Below the pieces are notes generated by a model, which had not been told where the DNA came from, ran no database searches, and saw only the letters and a list, made by a program, of their open reading frames with translations. A stretch of DNA of 64,000 nt from Gilvimarinus algae (GTDB taxonomy: Bacteria; Pseudomonadota; Gammaproteobacteria; Pseudomonadales; Cellvibrionaceae): positions 248,001 to 312,000 of the forward strand of contig NZ_JAULRT010000032.1 of assembly GCF_030518215.1 (NCBI RefSeq), written 5' to 3'. The translations under genes and the position numbers were made by a program. Each line of letters opens with the position of its first letter. Within the stretch, counting starts at the first letter, position 1. Positions 1,448 to 64,000 of this stretch are shown piece after piece.

Positions 1448-2763
1448 CAGAGAATATAGCGGCTCAGATCTTCGTTTTTAGCTAATTCACCGAGGTGGTT
1501 GTCGACATAGCCGGCGTCGATCACAAACCGCTCGCCATCGCTGCCAGCGTCAAAGGAAATTTCTTCCAGTAAGCGTTCAAGCAGGGTGTGCAGGCGTCGT
1601 GCACCAATGTTTTCGGTGCGCTCGTTCACATCAAAAGCGGTTTCGGCGATGCGACGAATTCCGTCTTTGGTGAACTCGATGTCGACGCCTTCGGTTTTTA
1701 ACAGCGCTTGCTGCTGCTCGGTGAGCGATGCCGAGGGCTCGGTGAGAATCCGCTCAAAGTCGTCCGGTGTCAGAGCGCTCAGCTCCACCCGAATGGGCAG
1801 CCGGCCCTGCAGCTCTGGAATCAGATCCGAAGGCTTGGATAAGTGAAAGGCTCCGGATGAAATAAACAGGATATGATCGGTTTTGACCATGCCGTGTTTG
1901 GTGCTGACGGTACAGCCCTCAATAAGCGGCAGGAGGTCCCGCTGCACGCCTTCGCGGGAGACATCGGCGCCGCTGGTTTCGCCGCGCTTGGCGACTTTAT
2001 CGATTTCATCAATAAAGACGATGCCGTTTTGCTCCACGGCCTCAATTGCCATGGATTTAATGTCGTCATTGTTAACCAGGCGTGCCGCTTCTTCTTCCTG
2101 CAACACTTTCAAGGCTTGCTTGACGGTCATTTTACTGGTGTGTGTTTTACCGCTGGACATGGAGGAAAACATGTTTTGTAGCTGGTTGGTCATCTCTTCC
2201 ATACCGGGTGGCGCCATGATCTCAACACCGACCGGGGTAGCCGCAACGTCCACTTCGATTTCTTTGTCGTCCAGGTCGCCCTCGCGCAGCTTCTTGCGAA
2301 ATACCTGGCGGGTGTTCGCGCCTGATTCAGTGTCGCTGTCGCCCCGTGCTTTGGGTAAAAGGGCGTTGAGGACACGCTCCTCAGCGGCCTCGGCGGCGCG
2401 TACCTCTACGCGCTTCATGGCCTGCTCGCGCTGCATTTTAATGGCGCTTTCCACCAGGTCACGAATAATGGATTCCACGTCCCGGCCGACGTAGCCGACT
2501 TCGGTGAACTTGGTGGCTTCCACTTTGATAAACGGGGCGCCGGCGAGCTTGGCCAGACGCCGGGCGATTTCGGTTTTGCCGACCCCCGTGGGGCCAATCA
2601 TCAAAATATTTTTTGGGGTGATTTCACCGCGCAGATCCGGGGCGACCTGCATGCGCCGCCAGCGGTTTCGCAGCGCTATGGCGACCGCGCGCTTGGCGTC
2701 GCTCTGGCCAACGATATGGCGATCGAGCTCGTGAACAATTTCACGGGGAGTCATGCTGGACAT
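1447..2763 (-). CDS. hslU: HslU, ATPase subunit of the HslVU protease
   Basis: A 438-residue AAA+ unfoldase (family usual ~440). It forms hexamers that unfold proteins and feed them to the HslV peptidase in the cytoplasm. The Walker A motif GPTGVGKT is at residues 57-64, Walker B is VFIDEIDK, and the I-domain insertion lies between them. The C-terminus ends in SRYIL, matching the tail that docks into HslV. It begins 14 bp after hslV and is surely cotranscribed with it. Conserved and complete. Confidence 0.97.
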
Positions 2764-2777
2764 AGAAGCACTCGCTG

Positions 2778-3317
2778 TCAGTATTCCAGAGATTCAATCG
2801 TCTGGTTGTGGTTGGTATAGATGCAGATGTCGCCGGCGATAGACAGACCCTTTTCGACGATGGCGCGGGCGTCGAGCTCGGTGTTGTCGAGCAACGCGCG
2901 CGCAGCCGACTGCGCGAAGGCGCCGCCTGAGCCTATGGCGATGAGGTCGTCTTCGGGCTGAATTACGTCACCGTTGCCGGTAATGATCAACGAGGCCTCT
3001 TTGTCAGCAACAGCCAGCAAGGCCTCCAGGCGGCGTAGAGAGCGCTCTGTGCGCCAGTCCTTAGCCAGCTCTACGGCCGCCCGGGTCAGCTGGCCGTTGT
3101 AGGCTTCTAACTTGGCTTCAAAGCGCTCGAACAGGGTAAAGGCATCAGCGGTGCCGCCGGCAAATCCGGCCAGCACTTGGTCGCGATAAAGTCTACGGAC
3201 CTTACGCGCGTTGCCTTTCATGATGGTGTTGCCCAGTGAGACCTGGCCGTCGCCGCCGATGACAACGGTGTTGCCCCGGCGCACGGAGAGAATGGTGGTA
3301 CCTCGGTACTGTTCCAC
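2778..3317 (-). CDS. hslV: HslV, peptidase subunit of the HslVU protease
   Basis: A 179-residue N-terminal-nucleophile threonine peptidase of the proteasome beta-subunit fold. It begins [15 protein letters not shown], so the catalytic threonine would be Thr7, exposed after removal of a six-residue propeptide; E. coli-type HslV begins directly MTTI. The motifs [24 protein letters not shown] and the GSGG loop are all present. It is followed closely by hslU. A sigma-32 promoter match lies ~90 bp upstream, with a hairpin in the leader. The short-form start cannot be used because no Met precedes Thr7. Confidence 0.97.
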
Positions 3318-57656: not shown

Positions 57657-57986
57657 ATGCCACTACCTGCCTGCCCGCTTTGCAAGGGCGAATACACTTA
57701 TCAAGATCAAGCGTTTCTTATGTGCCCTGAGTGCGGTCATGAATGGATAGCAGGTGAAGAAAAGGATGAGGGGGTTTCTGTTCGAGATGCCAACGGTAAT
57801 TCCCTCATTGAGGGTGACTCGGCTACTCTTGCCAAAGATTTGAAAGTCAAAGGCACCTCTGAGGTTCTAAAAGTGGGGACCAAAGTGACGATCAAGCGCA
57901 TTGTCGATGGTGACCACAATATCGACTGCAAGCTCGCCAAGGGCGGAGATATGATGCTGAAAAGTGAGTTTGTGAAAAAGGCATAG
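57657..57986 (+). CDS. yjdM: PhnA/YjdM family protein
   Basis: A complete 109-residue protein. The N-terminal zinc ribbon ([15 protein letters not shown]) is followed by the PhnA beta domain ([20 protein letters not shown]). Historically called alkylphosphonate utilisation protein, its real function is unclear. The last ~170 bp are copied at 59595-59763 as part of a direct repeat. Confidence 0.93.
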
Positions 57987-58256
57987 CCATGCGTACGCCT
58001 GGGTGTTGCCGCAGCATAAGGTTTTAACCTGCACCCTAGCATTTACGGTTTAGTGCACAGATAGTTGGGTTCCGCCTCGAGTCCAAACCGTGTTCGCTGG
58101 CGCTCAGGTAGATGACTAATGAGCTGATCCTCTTTGACAGAAAATCCTACCGCTCTCAGTTTTTGCGGGTAATCTCTGCCATAGAGTCGAACATGATCCC
58201 ATTGCCAAAAGGCTTTGGTACGCTCCTCCGGTGAGGTGGTGTCCAGCCCTAATAGG
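57816..58256. repeat. Direct repeat, copy 1
   Basis: Near-identical to 59595-60033, offset 1777-1779 bp. It covers the 3' end of phnA (intact here), the gap, and the 3' end of a methyltransferase gene (broken here). The 57 bases after the phnA stop are identical in both copies. Confidence 0.9.
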
Positions 58257-58464: not shown

Positions 58465-59238
58465 TTATTTTATTGATCTTTCAAAAACAGATATTTGCTG
58501 TCCGCACAGTCTTCCAGGTCTATCTTTTAGGTGTAGCCCAGCTTCTAGAGCCAATGTATCTAAAAAATCATCGCTGATCATCATGACTTGTTCATTGCCT
58601 ACAATGTCTTTGTTGTTCGGTATGGGTGTTTCAGGGAAAAAGGTACAGAATTCATCCGGCGTGTGAGTTGAAAAAATTGCGACCCCATTAGGTGATAAGC
58701 TAGCTGCTGTTTGCTTTAAATAATGGGAGATATCGCCTTCATAAAGGTGAGTGAGTATTGATGCGCCTATGGCTAGGTCAATTGATCCGTTCTGGCATGG
58801 AAAGATAAAATCCCTTGTTGGTACCCGGCCCTTGGGATTGTACATGTGAGATATTCCGTCAAAGTGGTGAAAATTAAACCTGTTGCCGTAAACTTTTTTA
58901 AAATGATATTGGCACCACTCTATAGCAGGCCAATAAATGTCGAATCCGATGTACTCTAACTGAGGTAAAAGGCAGAAGTGCCGCGCCATTTTCCCTACCC
59001 CACAACCAATATCAAGAACTCTTGGGTTTGTGCAATTTGTTGTGTACTGCATGCTGAGTTGAGTCCAGGCAGAGCCAATATATAGAAATCGATCCAGCTC
59101 CGGCCCGCTTACAGTTGCTCGCAATCGTTTGGAGGGTATCGGGAGCTCAAGACTATTGTAAGTGAATTGAGCATCTATTTCCTCTGATGGGTGAGAATAC
59201 TGATTGCTGATCCATGTTGCAGGCTTCGAGAAATCCAT
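58465..59238 (-). CDS. Class I SAM-dependent methyltransferase, AT-rich
   Basis: A 257-residue methyltransferase (SAM motif I VLDIGCGVGKMARHF, then YIGFDIYWPAIEWCQ). Start at 59238 is favoured by GGAGGA seven bases upstream; an ATG at 59301 would give 278 residues. Substrate unknown. It lies inside the segment bracketed by the direct repeat and has low GC, so it looks acquired. It could act on a sugar or on a peptide product of the nearby cluster; neither is shown. Confidence 0.8.
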   Translation of the reverse strand: MDFSKPATWISNQYSHPSEEIDAQFTYNSLELPIPSKRLRATVSGPELDRFLYIGSAWTQLSMQYTTNCTNPRVLDIGCGVGKMARHFCLLPQLEYIGFDIYWPAIEWCQYHFKKVYGNRFNFHHFDGISHMYNPKGRVPTRDFIFPCQNGSIDLAIGASILTHLYEGDISHYLKQTAASLSPNGVAIFSTHTPDEFCTFFPETPIPNNKDIVGNEQVMMISDDFLDTLALEAGLHLKDRPGRLCGQQISVFERSIK

Positions 59239-59301
59239 GTACTTGTCCTCCGTCTGATTCTCAATATACTGTTTGTTGGTTCTGCCAAATGAATTGATCA
59301 T

Positions 59302-59594: not shown

Positions 59595-59763
59595 GATAGT
59601 GCGACTCTGGCCAAAAGACTTGAAAGTCAAAGGCGCCTCTGAGGTTCTAAAAGTGAGCACTAAAGTGATCAAGCGCATTGTCGATGGTGACTACAATATC
59701 GACTGCAAGCTCGCCAAGGGCGGCGATATGATACTGAAAAGTGAGTCTGTGAAAAAGGCATAG
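59595..59763 (+). pseudogene. 3' remnant of phnA
   Basis: Matches the last ~170 bp of phnA at 57816-57986. It has one inserted base (CCAAAAGAC against CCAAAGAT) and a 3-base deletion, and lacks the zinc-ribbon part and any start. Same stop context and identical downstream bases. Confidence 0.85.
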
Positions 59764-60033
59764 CCATGCGTACGCCTGGGTGTTGCCGCAGCATAAGGTT
59801 TTAACCTGCACCCTAGCATTTACGGTTTAGTGCACAGATAGTTGGGTTCCGCCTCGAGTCCAAACCGTGTTCGCTGGTGCTCAGGTAGATGACTAATGAG
59901 CTGATCCTCTTGGACAGAAAATCCTACCGCTCTCAGTTTTTGCGGGTAATCTCTGCCATAAAGTCGAACATGATCCCATTGCCAAAAGGCTTTGGTACGC
60001 TCCTCTGGTGAGGTGATGCTCCAGTCCTCATAG
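59595..60033. repeat. Direct repeat, copy 2
   Basis: Partner of 57816-58256. Here the methyltransferase end is intact and the phnA end is broken. Confidence 0.9.
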
Positions 60034-60647
60034 GTTTCTTCCCTGTTGTGGTCTATCGGCACATCCAGTAGCGCTACTCCACCTGGTTTAAGAACTCGGT
60101 ATACCTCGTCCATCGCTTTTCTATCGTCGCTTATATGTTCAAAGACATGAACGCAGACGATATAATCAAAGCTGTTAGATGGAAATGATAAGGCGGTGAT
60201 ATCTTCTTTTCTCATTGCCTTTGTGTGATCAATATCGACACTCAGATAATCTATGTCAGCATGGCTGCAAATAATTTCCGTGATCATTCTTTCCGGTGAA
60301 AAGTGTAGAACTTTCTTTTTCCCGTTGCTGTTCAAAAGTTTTTCCAAGCTAAAGGCGTAGCTTCTATGTCTTGGGTGGGAGTAACAGCTTGGACAAACAG
60401 CGTTTGGATACACGTGGCCATAGCCAGTGTAGAAGTTGATAAACGATCGTCCCTGCCAGCCGCATAGGTTACACTCCACCTTGGCGCGGCGTTTGAATAA
60501 TGCTTGACAGCGTGCCGCTTCCATTACTCCTGCCGCCAACAGAGCTAGCCTTTTTGCTGGAGAGAAGCTTGTGGTGGACAGTCTGTTATAGTTGATGTGC
60601 TGCGAAATTCGCACTAGCTGCATCATTAGTTGAGTCCTTATTTTCAA
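59820..60647 (-). CDS. Zinc-ribbon SAM-dependent methyltransferase
   Basis: A 275-residue class I methyltransferase with an N-terminal zinc-ribbon-like pair (CNLCGW and CPSC at about 59-90) and the SAM-binding region LSVDIDHTKAM, DYIVCVHVFEHISDD and VLKPGGVALLDVP. The 5' end overlaps the glycosyltransferase gene by 62 bases (41 if it starts at 60626), so the two are translated together. Such proteins often sit among glycan genes. Here it may act on the sugar, on the precursor peptide, or on something else. Confidence 0.8.
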   Translation of the reverse strand: MKIRTQLMMQLVRISQHINYNRLSTTSFSPAKRLALLAAGVMEAARCQALFKRRAKVECNLCGWQGRSFINFYTGYGHVYPNAVCPSCYSHPRHRSYAFSLEKLLNSNGKKKVLHFSPERMITEIICSHADIDYLSVDIDHTKAMRKEDITALSFPSNSFDYIVCVHVFEHISDDRKAMDEVYRVLKPGGVALLDVPIDHNREETYEDWSITSPEERTKAFWQWDHVRLYGRDYPQKLRAVGFSVQEDQLISHLPEHQRTRFGLEAEPNYLCTKP

Positions 60648-61941
60648 TAAAGTTCATTATAAATTTGGCGCAAGCTGCAGCCCCATTGTGGCGCTTCACG
60701 TCATCGCTGAAGTGTCTAATTCTCTCTTGATGAATGTTGCTTGATTCGATGTGCAAGAGTATGTTGGCAAACATGTCGGCGTTGAATTCTTGTGCGGGGA
60801 TGGAACCGCCAAGGCCGCACATCATTACGCGTAGGCCATTAATGGGTTGGTCATACATTCTCGGTCGAATGATTTGCGGAATTCCGGCCCGAATAGCCTG
60901 GGCTGTTGTTCCTATGCCGCCGTGGTGAACCAAGCAGCGGACTTTGGGTAAAAGTTCTTCAAAGTTGACGTGCTCAATAAATTGAATGGGAACGTCAAAG
61001 GGGATTTTCAGTGCTTCGAAAGCGGCGCGCCCATGCTTTGATACCAAAATCGCAGGTGAGCCCAGCTTTCGGCAGATGGGGATGATTTCCCGGCAAAGGT
61101 GCTGGATGTCCTCAACGGCGGTGCCTGGAGTAAACACAATTGGATTTGAGTGTCTCTCAAGAAATTCTTGAAGTTCAGGTGGGTTTTCCTGTAGTTCGGT
61201 AACGAAGGGGAAGCCCGCAAACTCAATGTGAGGGAAATAGCGGTTTACCGGATCGCTGAACCATGCAGGTAATAGGGCAATATGAAGATTGACCTTTACG
61301 CCAGAACGGCAGCCTAAAAATTTAGGGAAGACTTTCGCAATAACTCGCCGAAAGCCGGATGGTATAGGCGCTAAACCGTATTGTTTTCGGTATTCGTTGA
61401 GCTCGCTTTCGACCTCAAATGAGAATAGGCGATGAAGTTTTTCCAGCGGTCCGAGGATTCGCTTTGATAGCCATGAGTGTCTTCCATGAAACTCATTGTA
61501 CATATCCATATCGTAACCATTGTGAGGGATCTGCGACGTGGCGTAGTAAGTAACGATTAACGGAATGTTGAACTTCTCACAGGCAAGAGTGGCAGGGCTT
61601 AGGTTGCCGTGAGTGATTACCGTAATGTCGACTCCGTTAGTATGCTGTCTTTCAATATACTCAAATGTGCGTTCGAAACTTTTTCCAATAATATTCTCAA
61701 AGCGGTGTTTCCTGCCCTGTTTGGTTTCTCCTGACGAGTCTTCGCTCTCTCTAGCAGCAAGTTGATGCTCTATCAATCCGATTGAGTGGAACTCAATGCC
61801 TCGGCCCACAATGTGGTCTTTGAAGTATTCATTGGCCAAGAAGGCCACGTTGCAGTGCTTTGCCAGTCTTTCAGCGATTGCCAGCAAAGGGTAGATGTCA
61901 CCCAGAGAGCCGAAGGCAACCATCACTATTTTCCGATTCAT
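60586..61941 (-). CDS. UDP-glycosyltransferase family (GT1/GT28-like) protein
   Basis: A 451-residue GT-B fold enzyme of the type used for lipids, carotenoids and small molecules (RhlB-, CrtX-like). The donor-sugar motif HHGGIGTTAQAIRAGIPQII is near residue 340 and the N-terminal GSLGDIYPLLAIAE fits the acceptor domain. The start at 61941 has GGAG six bases upstream. It follows the precursor gene and the hairpin. I infer it could glycosylate the peptide, but known glycocin transferases are mostly of another family, so this is open. Confidence 0.82.
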   Translation of the reverse strand: MNRKIVMVAFGSLGDIYPLLAIAERLAKHCNVAFLANEYFKDHIVGRGIEFHSIGLIEHQLAARESEDSSGETKQGRKHRFENIIGKSFERTFEYIERQHTNGVDITVITHGNLSPATLACEKFNIPLIVTYYATSQIPHNGYDMDMYNEFHGRHSWLSKRILGPLEKLHRLFSFEVESELNEYRKQYGLAPIPSGFRRVIAKVFPKFLGCRSGVKVNLHIALLPAWFSDPVNRYFPHIEFAGFPFVTELQENPPELQEFLERHSNPIVFTPGTAVEDIQHLCREIIPICRKLGSPAILVSKHGRAAFEALKIPFDVPIQFIEHVNFEELLPKVRCLVHHGGIGTTAQAIRAGIPQIIRPRMYDQPINGLRVMMCGLGGSIPAQEFNADMFANILLHIESSNIHQERIRHFSDDVKRHNGAAACAKFIMNFIENKDSTNDAASANFAAHQL

Positions 61942-61967: not shown

Positions 61968-61996
61968 ACATCTGCGGGCTTCAAGCCCGCAGATGT
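61968..61996 (-). promoter_or_regulatory. 13-bp hairpin between precursor gene and glycosyltransferase gene
   Basis: ACATCTGCGGGCT and AGCCCGCAGATGT pair perfectly around a 3-nt loop. There is no T run on the minus strand, so it is a processing or partial-stop hairpin rather than a classical terminator. It would favour precursor over enzyme mRNA. Confidence 0.7.
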
Positions 61997-62005
61997 GTTG
62001 CTTCT

Positions 62006-62167
62006 CTAGTTGTTGCAGTGCCACGCACTAGAGTAAGGATCGCAAGGTGGCGGTGGTGGTGGCGGTGGGTCACACTCAACGCTAATCACGTTGTTGTAGT
62101 TGTCTCGGATGACGCGACATCCGCCACCACTGACTGCCTTCATTTCTTCTTTCGTTAGATAACGCAT
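62006..62167 (-). CDS. Double-glycine microcin/RiPP-like precursor peptide
   Basis: A 53-residue peptide too short for usual gene finding. Leader MRYLTKEEMKAVSGG (1-15) matches the class II microcin leader pattern M-R-x-L-x-x-x-E-[IM]-x-x-V-[ST]-G-G, with cleavage after Gly15 (or Gly16). The core has Cys at 17, 32, 42 and 51, Asp33 then eight prolines (34-41), Cys42-Asp43-Pro44, an aromatic tail (Tyr45, Trp49) and ends NN. Shine-Dalgarno AGGA at 62175-62178 is 7 bases upstream and overlaps the exporter's TAG stop. The adjacent exporter has the matching C39 peptidase. I infer an exported peptide, probably a bacteriocin; no core match is known to me. Confidence 0.82.
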   Translation of the reverse strand: MRYLTKEEMKAVSGGGCRVIRDNYNNVISVECDPPPPPPPPCDPYSSAWHCNN

Positions 62168-62176
62168 AAGACATTC

Positions 62177-64000
62177 CTAGTCGTTATGAATGGTATGCCG
62201 AGGGTTCCCGGCAAGATGAAATTGCTTCCCTGCAGACCGAACAGTTTCCGGTCTATGTGCTACCAGAACCCGGGTGATACTGAGCTTGCCGATGTTTTGG
62301 CTGACTACTGACTCACTATCAGTGTCCAGGTGGCTGGTGGCCTCGTCCATGAACAGAATTTGCGGAGTGCGATAGAGCGCACGAGCTAAAATGACACGTT
62401 GCTTTTGTCCTCCGCTGAGATTTGAACCTAGATCACCAATGAGGGTTTCATACCCCATGGTCATTTTCTCGATGTCTCTATGAATACAAGCATTAGTTGC
62501 GCATTGCTTAATTCTTTCGCCATCGGGCGATTCTGAGAAGAAGGCAATGTTATCTCGGATGCTGCCGCTGACAAGCTGGTCATCCTGCATGACGCCAGAG
62601 ATCTGGCCTCGATACTGAGGTATGGATTTTAGGGGTTTTCCATCGATAAGGATTTCGCCTTCGGTGGGCTCATACAGCCCCATTAGACATTTAATCAGTG
62701 TGGATTTTCCGCAGCCGCTCGGGCCGGTGATTGCAAGTGACTCGCCTTTCTCTACCTCAAAGCTAACGTTACGGAAGGCGAAATCCTTCTCTCCCTCAAA
62801 CTGGTACCCTAAGTTGACGACTTTAATATTTCCTTCTATGCGATTGTCCTTGTCAAGACTCGCTTCGTTGGACGCTGGTTCCTTGTTTGTAAAAGCAATG
62901 TCGGAGAGCCGCTCTAAATGAATGTCAAGAAGCTTGAACTCTATGGACTGAGTTATTAGGTTGTTGAAGGATATAGTGAAGCTGCTCTTGAAACTGACAA
63001 ACGCAAATAGCATCCCGAGACTAAATTGATTATCCCTGACCAGAAGTGCAGCAAGGAAAATTACTGCAATATTTTCGATGCCAAATAGAATGTTGCTGGC
63101 ATTTGTGGTGAAAGTATTCCACTTGGACAGCTGTACCTCTTTGTCGATATGATTGCTAAACTTTGTTGCCCATTGGGCTTGTCGGATACCCTCCTTCTGA
63201 AAGAGTTTTAGTGTTTGTACAGCCCTTAGCGTCTCAAGGAAAAAGCTATTTTCATTGGCAGAGGCGATGATGCTGTCTTGGCTAAGAAGGCGTATCTTCC
63301 GATATAGCGAGATTCGCAGCAGGGTGTACAACGAGACCGCCATAAGGGTTATCATCGTTAATGTGGTGCTGTAGTAAAACAGGATTGCCAGAGTGATTAT
63401 TGTCATGGCGCCATCCAGAATGGCGGTGACAAGGCCTCCGGTGATCATGTCCCGAACGCTTCGTAGGGAGCCAAATCTCGAGACGATGTCGCCAACATGT
63501 CTTCTCGAGAAGAAGCTAAAGGGAAGCCTTATTAGATGAAAGAACAAGTTTGCACCCATTTGTAAGCTAAGTTGCTTCGAAAGGTGCAATATGGCAAAAG
63601 ACCTAAGAAAGCTAATTGCCGCCTGGGTGAGAACGAGCAGTGAAAACCCTATGGCAATTGGCACTAACCAGTCCCAGTACTCGGTGCTTACTACCTGATC
63701 TACTACGAGTTGCAGATAGAGCGGAGATAAAATCGTCACGAAGTGGAGTGCAAAGGTAATTGCAATTATCTGAAAAAGACTTCGCTTCAGGCCAATGACG
63801 TTAGTCCATAGGTCAGATAGCCTTAACTTTTTATTGTAGTTTCCTTTGTTGAAGTCTTCAGTTTTGGTGACTTCTACCACAATTCCCGTGAAATGAAGGT
63901 TGAATTCGCTTAACGGAAGTAAAACCTCTCCTCGAGAGGGGTCCATTACAGTAAATTGGTCGTTTCGCTTTTTAGTAAGAACCACAAAGTGATTGATATC
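62177..64000 (-). CDS. C39-peptidase ABC exporter (5' part beyond the window)
   Basis: 607 residues are visible; the start lies past 64000. The first ~45 are the end of a C39 bacteriocin-processing peptidase domain, with the catalytic His in NHFVVLT and Asp in VMDPSRG; the catalytic Cys lies beyond the window. Then follow an ABC transmembrane domain of about six helices (about 70-350) and an ATPase domain with Walker A GPSGCGKST, signature LSGGQKQR, Walker B ILFMDEA and H-loop VLVAHRPE. Such exporters cut after Gly-Gly and export the core. The stop codon overlaps the precursor ribosome-binding site. Low GC, like the rest of this cluster. Confidence 0.93.
   Translation of the reverse strand, partial: DINHFVVLTKKRNDQFTVMDPSRGEVLLPLSEFNLHFTGIVVEVTKTEDFNKGNYNKKLRLSDLWTNVIGLKRSLFQIIAITFALHFVTILSPLYLQLVVDQVVSTEYWDWLVPIAIGFSLLVLTQAAISFLRSFAILHLSKQLSLQMGANLFFHLIRLPFSFFSRRHVGDIVSRFGSLRSVRDMITGGLVTAILDGAMTIITLAILFYYSTTLTMITLMAVSLYTLLRISLYRKIRLLSQDSIIASANENSFFLETLRAVQTLKLFQKEGIRQAQWATKFSNHIDKEVQLSKWNTFTTNASNILFGIENIAVIFLAALLVRDNQFSLGMLFAFVSFKSSFTISFNNLITQSIEFKLLDIHLERLSDIAFTNKEPASNEASLDKDNRIEGNIKVVNLGYQFEGEKDFAFRNVSFEVEKGESLAITGPSGCGKSTLIKCLMGLYEPTEGEILIDGKPLKSIPQYRGQISGVMQDDQLVSGSIRDNIAFFSESPDGERIKQCATNACIHRDIEKMTMGYETLIGDLGSNLSGGQKQRVILARALYRTPQILFMDEATSHLDTDSESVVSQNIGKLSITRVLVAHRPETVRSAGKQFHLAGNPRHTIHND

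Follow-up and report, generated by a model that had tools for sequence, protein, structure and literature searches.

Class II microcins of the MccV type combine a double-glycine (GG) leader, an adjacent C39 exporter and a small Cys-containing core. Class IIb siderophore microcins (MccE492/H47 type) also have a GG leader and a C39 exporter, and their clusters include a glycosyltransferase (GT) for the siderophore. Glycocins such as sublancin and glycocin F unite a GG-leader precursor, a C39-type exporter and a GT in one cluster and carry Cys for two disulfides. In the available sections of two reports, the definition of class II microcins includes an N-terminal leader ending in GG or GA (PMC9746304, PMC10233263), and those of the former give Cys32/His105/Asp121 as the catalytic residues of CvaB.

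We analyzed a window of 64,000 nucleotides, the whole stretch of DNA presented here, in which a gene on the minus strand encodes the 53-aa peptide MRYLTKEEMKAVSGGGCRVIRDNYNNVISVECDPPPPPPPPCDPYSSAWHCNN behind a C39 exporter (Table 1). With moderate confidence, we read it as a precursor whose secreted, class II microcin-like product is exported by the neighboring transporter and modified by a GT and perhaps a methyltransferase, competition being its likeliest use. Of the class II microcin features, the GG leader and a C39 ABC exporter with Cys/His/Asp were both found. In contrast to the MccV type, the locus has a 38-aa core with eight consecutive prolines (Pro8), a truncated adaptor, a GT and a methyltransferase in the operon, and no recognizable immunity gene. 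The unusual features are the core, the UGT-type GT and an adaptor without the usual periplasmic part.

Table 1. Features of the cassette in the window.
Feature	Position	Strand	Remarks
Double-glycine precursor, 53 aa	62006..62167	(-)	leader residues 1-15, predicted core 16-53
C39 peptidase-containing ABC exporter	62177..64000 in window; whole gene G000:C50:310177-312315 (= L002:10177-12315)	(-)	Cys36, His109, Asp125
13-bp perfect stem-loop, precursor-GT intergenic	61968..61996	(-)	no T-run after it on coding strand
UGT-type (MGT, EryCIII-like) glycosyltransferase, 450 aa	60586..61938	(-)	HHGGIGT at residue 338, DQP at 363
SAM methyltransferase MT1 (Methyltransf_11), Cys-rich N-terminal part	59820..60629	(-)	start codon uncertain
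Second methyltransferase MT2	58465..59301	(-)	between two repeat copies

The initial annotation had described a 53-codon gene with a double-glycine leader, a ribosome-binding site and a 9-bp distance from the exporter, and all of this was recovered: the open reading frame is exact, its ATG follows the exporter stop after a gap of 9 nt, and an AGGAA lies 6 nt upstream of this ATG, overlapping the exporter stop codon. The leader has M at position -7 and L at position -12, in agreement with the available part of PMC12457901, where hydrophobic residues at these positions are typical of most C39 substrates. The predicted core harbors four Cys (C-X14-C-X9-C-X8-C, counted by eye) and ends in CDPYSSAWHCNN; its calculated mass is 4217.8 Da with two disulfides and cleavage after Gly-Gly. 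The exporter gene extends past the window edge; the genome contains it whole, and its 712-aa product has the Pfam domains Peptidase_C39 (1.5e-32), ABC_membrane and ABC_tran. The spacing of its Cys, His and Asp equals that of the CvaB residues as given in the accessible text of PMC9746304.

A relative of the precursor was found in one other genome (G070), which belongs to another genus of the family; this corrects the initial annotation, in which the core had no known relative. The G070 precursor (58 aa) lies beside a GT, an MT1, a C39 exporter and a 187-aa adaptor-like protein, and the order short adaptor, C39 exporter, precursor, GT and MT1 is common to both genomes; the operon of the window strain reads, 5' to 3' on the minus strand, 161-aa adaptor-like gene, exporter, precursor, GT, MT1 and MT2. 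The two leaders share 12 of 15 residues. At the codon level, 7 of the 15 positions are unchanged, 5 show synonymous differences and 3 carry replacements (Y/T, T/S, E/D). Both cores contain four Cys, the middle two of which flank a Pro-rich stretch. The G070 spacing is C-X12-C-X10-C-X14-C (counted by eye), and a MAFFT alignment matches three of the four Cys by column, the first being one column apart. A profile built from these two precursors (A2) gave strong matches only in the same two of 144 family genomes, plus three weak ones (E 8e-4 to 7.5e-3). The precursor stands beside a C39 exporter in both genomes. The exporter itself is not specific to the cassette: it is 51% identical to its G070 counterpart, and several family exporters without a GT are equally similar (49-51%).

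Taken together, these features suggest the following mechanism, of which processing and export by the neighbor are the firm, well-supported part. Export would be the joint task of the short MFP-like protein and the exporter, whose C39 domain would bind the leader (L-12, E-8, M-7, V-4) and cleave after Gly-Gly; the transporter would then move the 38-residue core, probably disulfide bonded, outwards. Before export, the UGT-type GT and perhaps the methyltransferase would modify the core in the cytoplasm. The stem-loop behind the precursor gene could allow an excess of precursor over enzyme. The likeliest use would be competition with other bacteria; antibacterial action is presumed by analogy with known bacteriocins, and a route across the outer membrane is likewise presumed.

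Among GT types, the GT matched only the EryCIII-like, MGT and sterol glucosyltransferase ones, in libraries that may lack a SunS model; it retains HHGGIGT and DQ. We took its start as the ATG at 61938; an upstream in-frame ATG (61971) sits inside the stem-loop. It is 48-50% identical to the GT of G070, and to that of no other genome; the next full-length match reaches 33% and partial matches up to 37%. At E<=1e-20, 22 of the 144 family genomes (own included) gave 27 GT matches, 20 of which were taken into a tree. The other seven were G080, with a split frame, G036, which is partial, and five matches with no retrieved locus (G082 C533, G082 C97:18459, G065 C1:3807867, G158 and G076 C225). The own and G070 sequences pair with a support of 100/99. 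C39-linked GTs are clustered on this tree (3 changes against a shuffled mean of 6.5; 4 of 500 shuffles as low), and the same 3 changes led us to reject a single clade of such GTs. Eight of the 27 matches, in 7 of the 22 genomes (own counted), have a C39 exporter match at most 10 kb away, where about 0.1 match is expected by a rough estimate that assumes 4.5-Mb genomes. We found no GT relative in genome_contigs (A1) or PLSDB, searches that missed or did not contain the G070 one and so leave absence unproven, and no true one in the order samples of 390 genomes (GT profile, E<=1e-50) or in a class sample of 369 genomes.

MT1 is 52-53% identical to its G070 counterpart, and at E<=1e-30 these were the only genomes among the 144 to give a match. 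Close copies of precursor, GT and MT1 together likewise occur only in these two. This gene order and exclusive co-occurrence, in two genomes only, suggest that the peptide is modified, and it is possibly glycosylated and methylated. Alternatively, the peptide could be an unmodified, disulfide-bonded class IIa-type microcin, with the GT and methyltransferase serving another substrate, such as a surface glycan or lipid that would take over the immunity protein's task of shielding the producer. Sterol and macrolide glucosyltransferases, which the GT resembles, use small molecules as substrates; the cassette contains no classical immunity gene; and 15 of the 22 GT-bearing family genomes have no C39 exporter match within 10 kb of the GT (14 if G000, the starting point, is set apart), indicating that this GT type has other uses too. 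However, in both genera GT and MT1 come directly after the precursor, and neither has a close copy elsewhere in the 144 genomes; we regard this alternative as rather doubtful.

Although the locus shares with the glycocins a GG-leader precursor, a C39-type exporter, a GT and Cys for two disulfides, we do not assign it to them. SunS belongs to a different GT family, and the GT found here is UGT/MGT-like rather than SunS-like; the Cys spacing of the core also differs from that of glycocins. Additionally, thioredoxin/DsbB-like genes are usual in glycocin clusters, according to the available part of PMC6405829, and no such thiol-disulfide oxidoreductase gene was seen among the operon genes. Glycocin membership was therefore rejected for want of a SunS-like GT and of thioredoxin/DsbB-like genes in the cassette. 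Similarly, membership in the class IIb microcins was rejected because the Ser/Gly-rich C-terminal siderophore motif is missing from the core; no siderophore-attachment gene was recognized in the cassette. The locus couples a GG precursor with a GT type unlike that of the sublancin-type glycocins and, should the peptide be the substrate of these enzymes, would represent a Gram-negative route to glycosylated bacteriocins. Among the open-access literature matches listed, no title dealt with a GT-linked GG peptide from this group, which is weak evidence of novelty since the matches are partly best-N lists (best 15 of 110, 10 of 19 and 10 of 214).

The 161-aa adaptor-like gene lies upstream of the exporter, beyond the window, and its stop codon is overlapped by the exporter ATG. 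Class II microcin systems encode a membrane fusion protein linking the exporter to TolC; as judged from its sequence, the 161-aa protein would lack the parts that reach TolC. It and its 187-aa G070 counterpart, which was located by position and is 27% identical where aligned, match full-length adaptors over about 45 N-terminal residues only (hhalign E 4.8e-8), a region that extends as far as the membrane helix. In the two proteins, hydrophobicity peaks in the 19-residue segments beginning at residues 35 and 40. Neither protein matches NCBIfam, and the 161-aa one has no Pfam match; used as a query in the family, it found only its own genome and the full-length adaptor of G092. Adaptors of 349-438 aa are encoded at seven further exporter loci, those that were read completely. 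The short form may be a working adaptor or a remnant, or may have immunity as a second role. According to the accessible sections of PMC9746304, microcin immunity proteins have 51-216 aa and a membrane helix and are encoded nearby; by these criteria, the cassette has no recognizable immunity gene unless the adaptor-like protein, the only small membrane protein noted among the operon products, fills the role. The initial annotation had proposed export as a bacteriocin or signal; it made no mention of the GT and methyltransferase genes, which continue in the same orientation. Its first half, a precursor with a processing exporter, is well supported by the leader, the Cys/His/Asp residues, the syntenic relative and the 20 of 30 family loci described below, whereas the role as bacteriocin or signal, with no recognizable immunity gene, stays presumptive.

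This leads to a further alternative, which we consider unlikely: a signalling, periplasmic or surface peptide rather than a toxin, released by the short adaptor into the periplasm or envelope and acting on the producer or its kin. The brevity of both adaptors and the lack of a recognized immunity gene are consistent with it, but the channel might be completed by a longer HlyD-like protein encoded at a different site (G000:C24, 481-aa frame), and the five-gene cassette contains no receptor or regulator gene. With about the same low probability, the locus could encode a glycopeptide pathway of Gram-negative type: a GT of the macrolide/sterol kind and a methyltransferase would decorate a four-Cys polyproline GG peptide, and a C39 transporter with a minimal adaptor, which lacks the periplasmic bridge, would export it, possibly to the periplasm and not through TolC. 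The short adaptor would make it testable whether a C39 exporter can function without a full periplasmic bridge.

Finally, a chance reading frame in the 3' flank of the exporter is highly improbable: the frame is short, NCBIfam leader models score below cut-off (TIGR01847, 14.2 vs 15.7 bits) and scans of viral_contigs, PLSDB and genome_contigs gave no relative, but the G070 relative has the same leader, four Cys and the same position. Two leader patterns each hit a single ORF in the 64-kb window, the precursor, and none in 40 first-order Markov resamplings; both were composed after the leader had been seen, so this result is supportive only, and the relative with the same leader and gene order argues better against chance. 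The collections were searched by back-translated scan and tblastn (viral_contigs, genome_contigs) or by tblastn (PLSDB); these searches missed or did not contain the G070 relative, and absence is therefore not proven. Similarly, no true relative was found in a sample of 58 relatives (precursor query) or in the order samples of 390 genomes (precursor profile, best <=16 candidates per genome), both of which G070 evidently lies outside. The weak matches were rejected as matches of Pro-rich composition: they start at query position 10 or later, miss most or all of the leader and in several cases contain stops. Three of them (L005, L006 and L009) were inspected as ORFs, and none has a similar leader.

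An uninterrupted 13-pair stem separates precursor and GT in both genomes, with unrelated sequences. Its z-score is -4.1 in the own genome, where none of 200 shuffles was as stable, and -3.4 in G070, where one of 200 was. A few T follow the G070 stem and none the own one, which is thus not a canonical terminator there and may be an attenuator or mRNA stabilizer. Terminator and promoter scans gave no excess over shuffles (4 vs 3.7; 5 vs 5.1), and the terminator scan reported the own stem-loop on the opposite strand only. Among 23 hand-chosen GG-leader genes of the family that were folded, 14 have at least 8 uninterrupted pairs within 70 nt behind the stop (by eye); the shuffle control covers the own and G070 genes.

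MT2 was not found in the G070 cassette. It is bracketed by a direct repeat (window 57834-58189 and 59614-59966; 300 nt at 98% and 55 nt at 91%), which comprises 3' portions of MT1 and a PhnA/YjdM gene and leaves a 66-aa MT1 remnant (94%). A defense system was rejected, as PADLOC matches were limited to ABC-ATPase and methyltransferase domains.

The block has a GC content of 43-48%, most surrounding 1-kb windows having 51-67%; a second low-GC stretch (43-45%) lies at L002 1001-2500. A flanking gene (L002 13238-14575, 445 aa, CFVCH motif), called lipoprotein-like as our reading of a protein without a Pfam match, recurs in G005 and G006 (73-77%), two of seven further genomes from the genus. In G006, rsgA, orn, an esterase, gnd (named from Pfam and, in relatives, from its N-terminus) and queG lie near this gene, and in G005 rsgA does. 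The block is absent from both sites, the two that were compared, indicating an accessory island. In G070, the cassette adjoins orn, and a second copy of the orn 3' part lies on the opposite side (L035 7055-7382 and 13554-13874, 89-98% identical), which suggests an insertion with duplication in the same chromosomal neighborhood.

C39 exporters were found at E<=1e-120 in at least 36 of the 144 family genomes; the best <=7 candidates per genome were scored, so that exporters may have been missed. A GG-leader ORF (<=130 aa, within 300 nt; a loose pattern composed after examples had been seen) follows the exporter on the same strand at 20 of 30 loci (18 of 28 without the two cassettes) and on the opposite strand at 2 of 30. 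C39/GG loci thus are a standing feature of the family, of a known kind, to which the present locus adds a precursor with an unusual core. These loci (among L045-L068) resemble ours in having the precursor directly behind the exporter, an MxELxxxExxxVxGG-like leader and often a stem-loop after it, whereas their cores are unrelated, many of them Gly-rich, and their adaptors, at the seven loci mentioned above, are full length. G157 and G098 encode an extra, separate C39-like protein, which in G157 seems to lack the catalytic Cys on reading its sequence. The G157 locus (L036 7828-13670) combines a GT, this stand-alone protein and two GG-leader precursors (L020:3082-3324 and 2755-3000), each with a run of 17 serines reminiscent of the Ser-rich tail of siderophore microcins. 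In G156 (L082 5933-6121), a GG-leader ORF with a six-Cys core lies behind a C39 exporter and is followed by genes that look, by eye, like the MacAB type.
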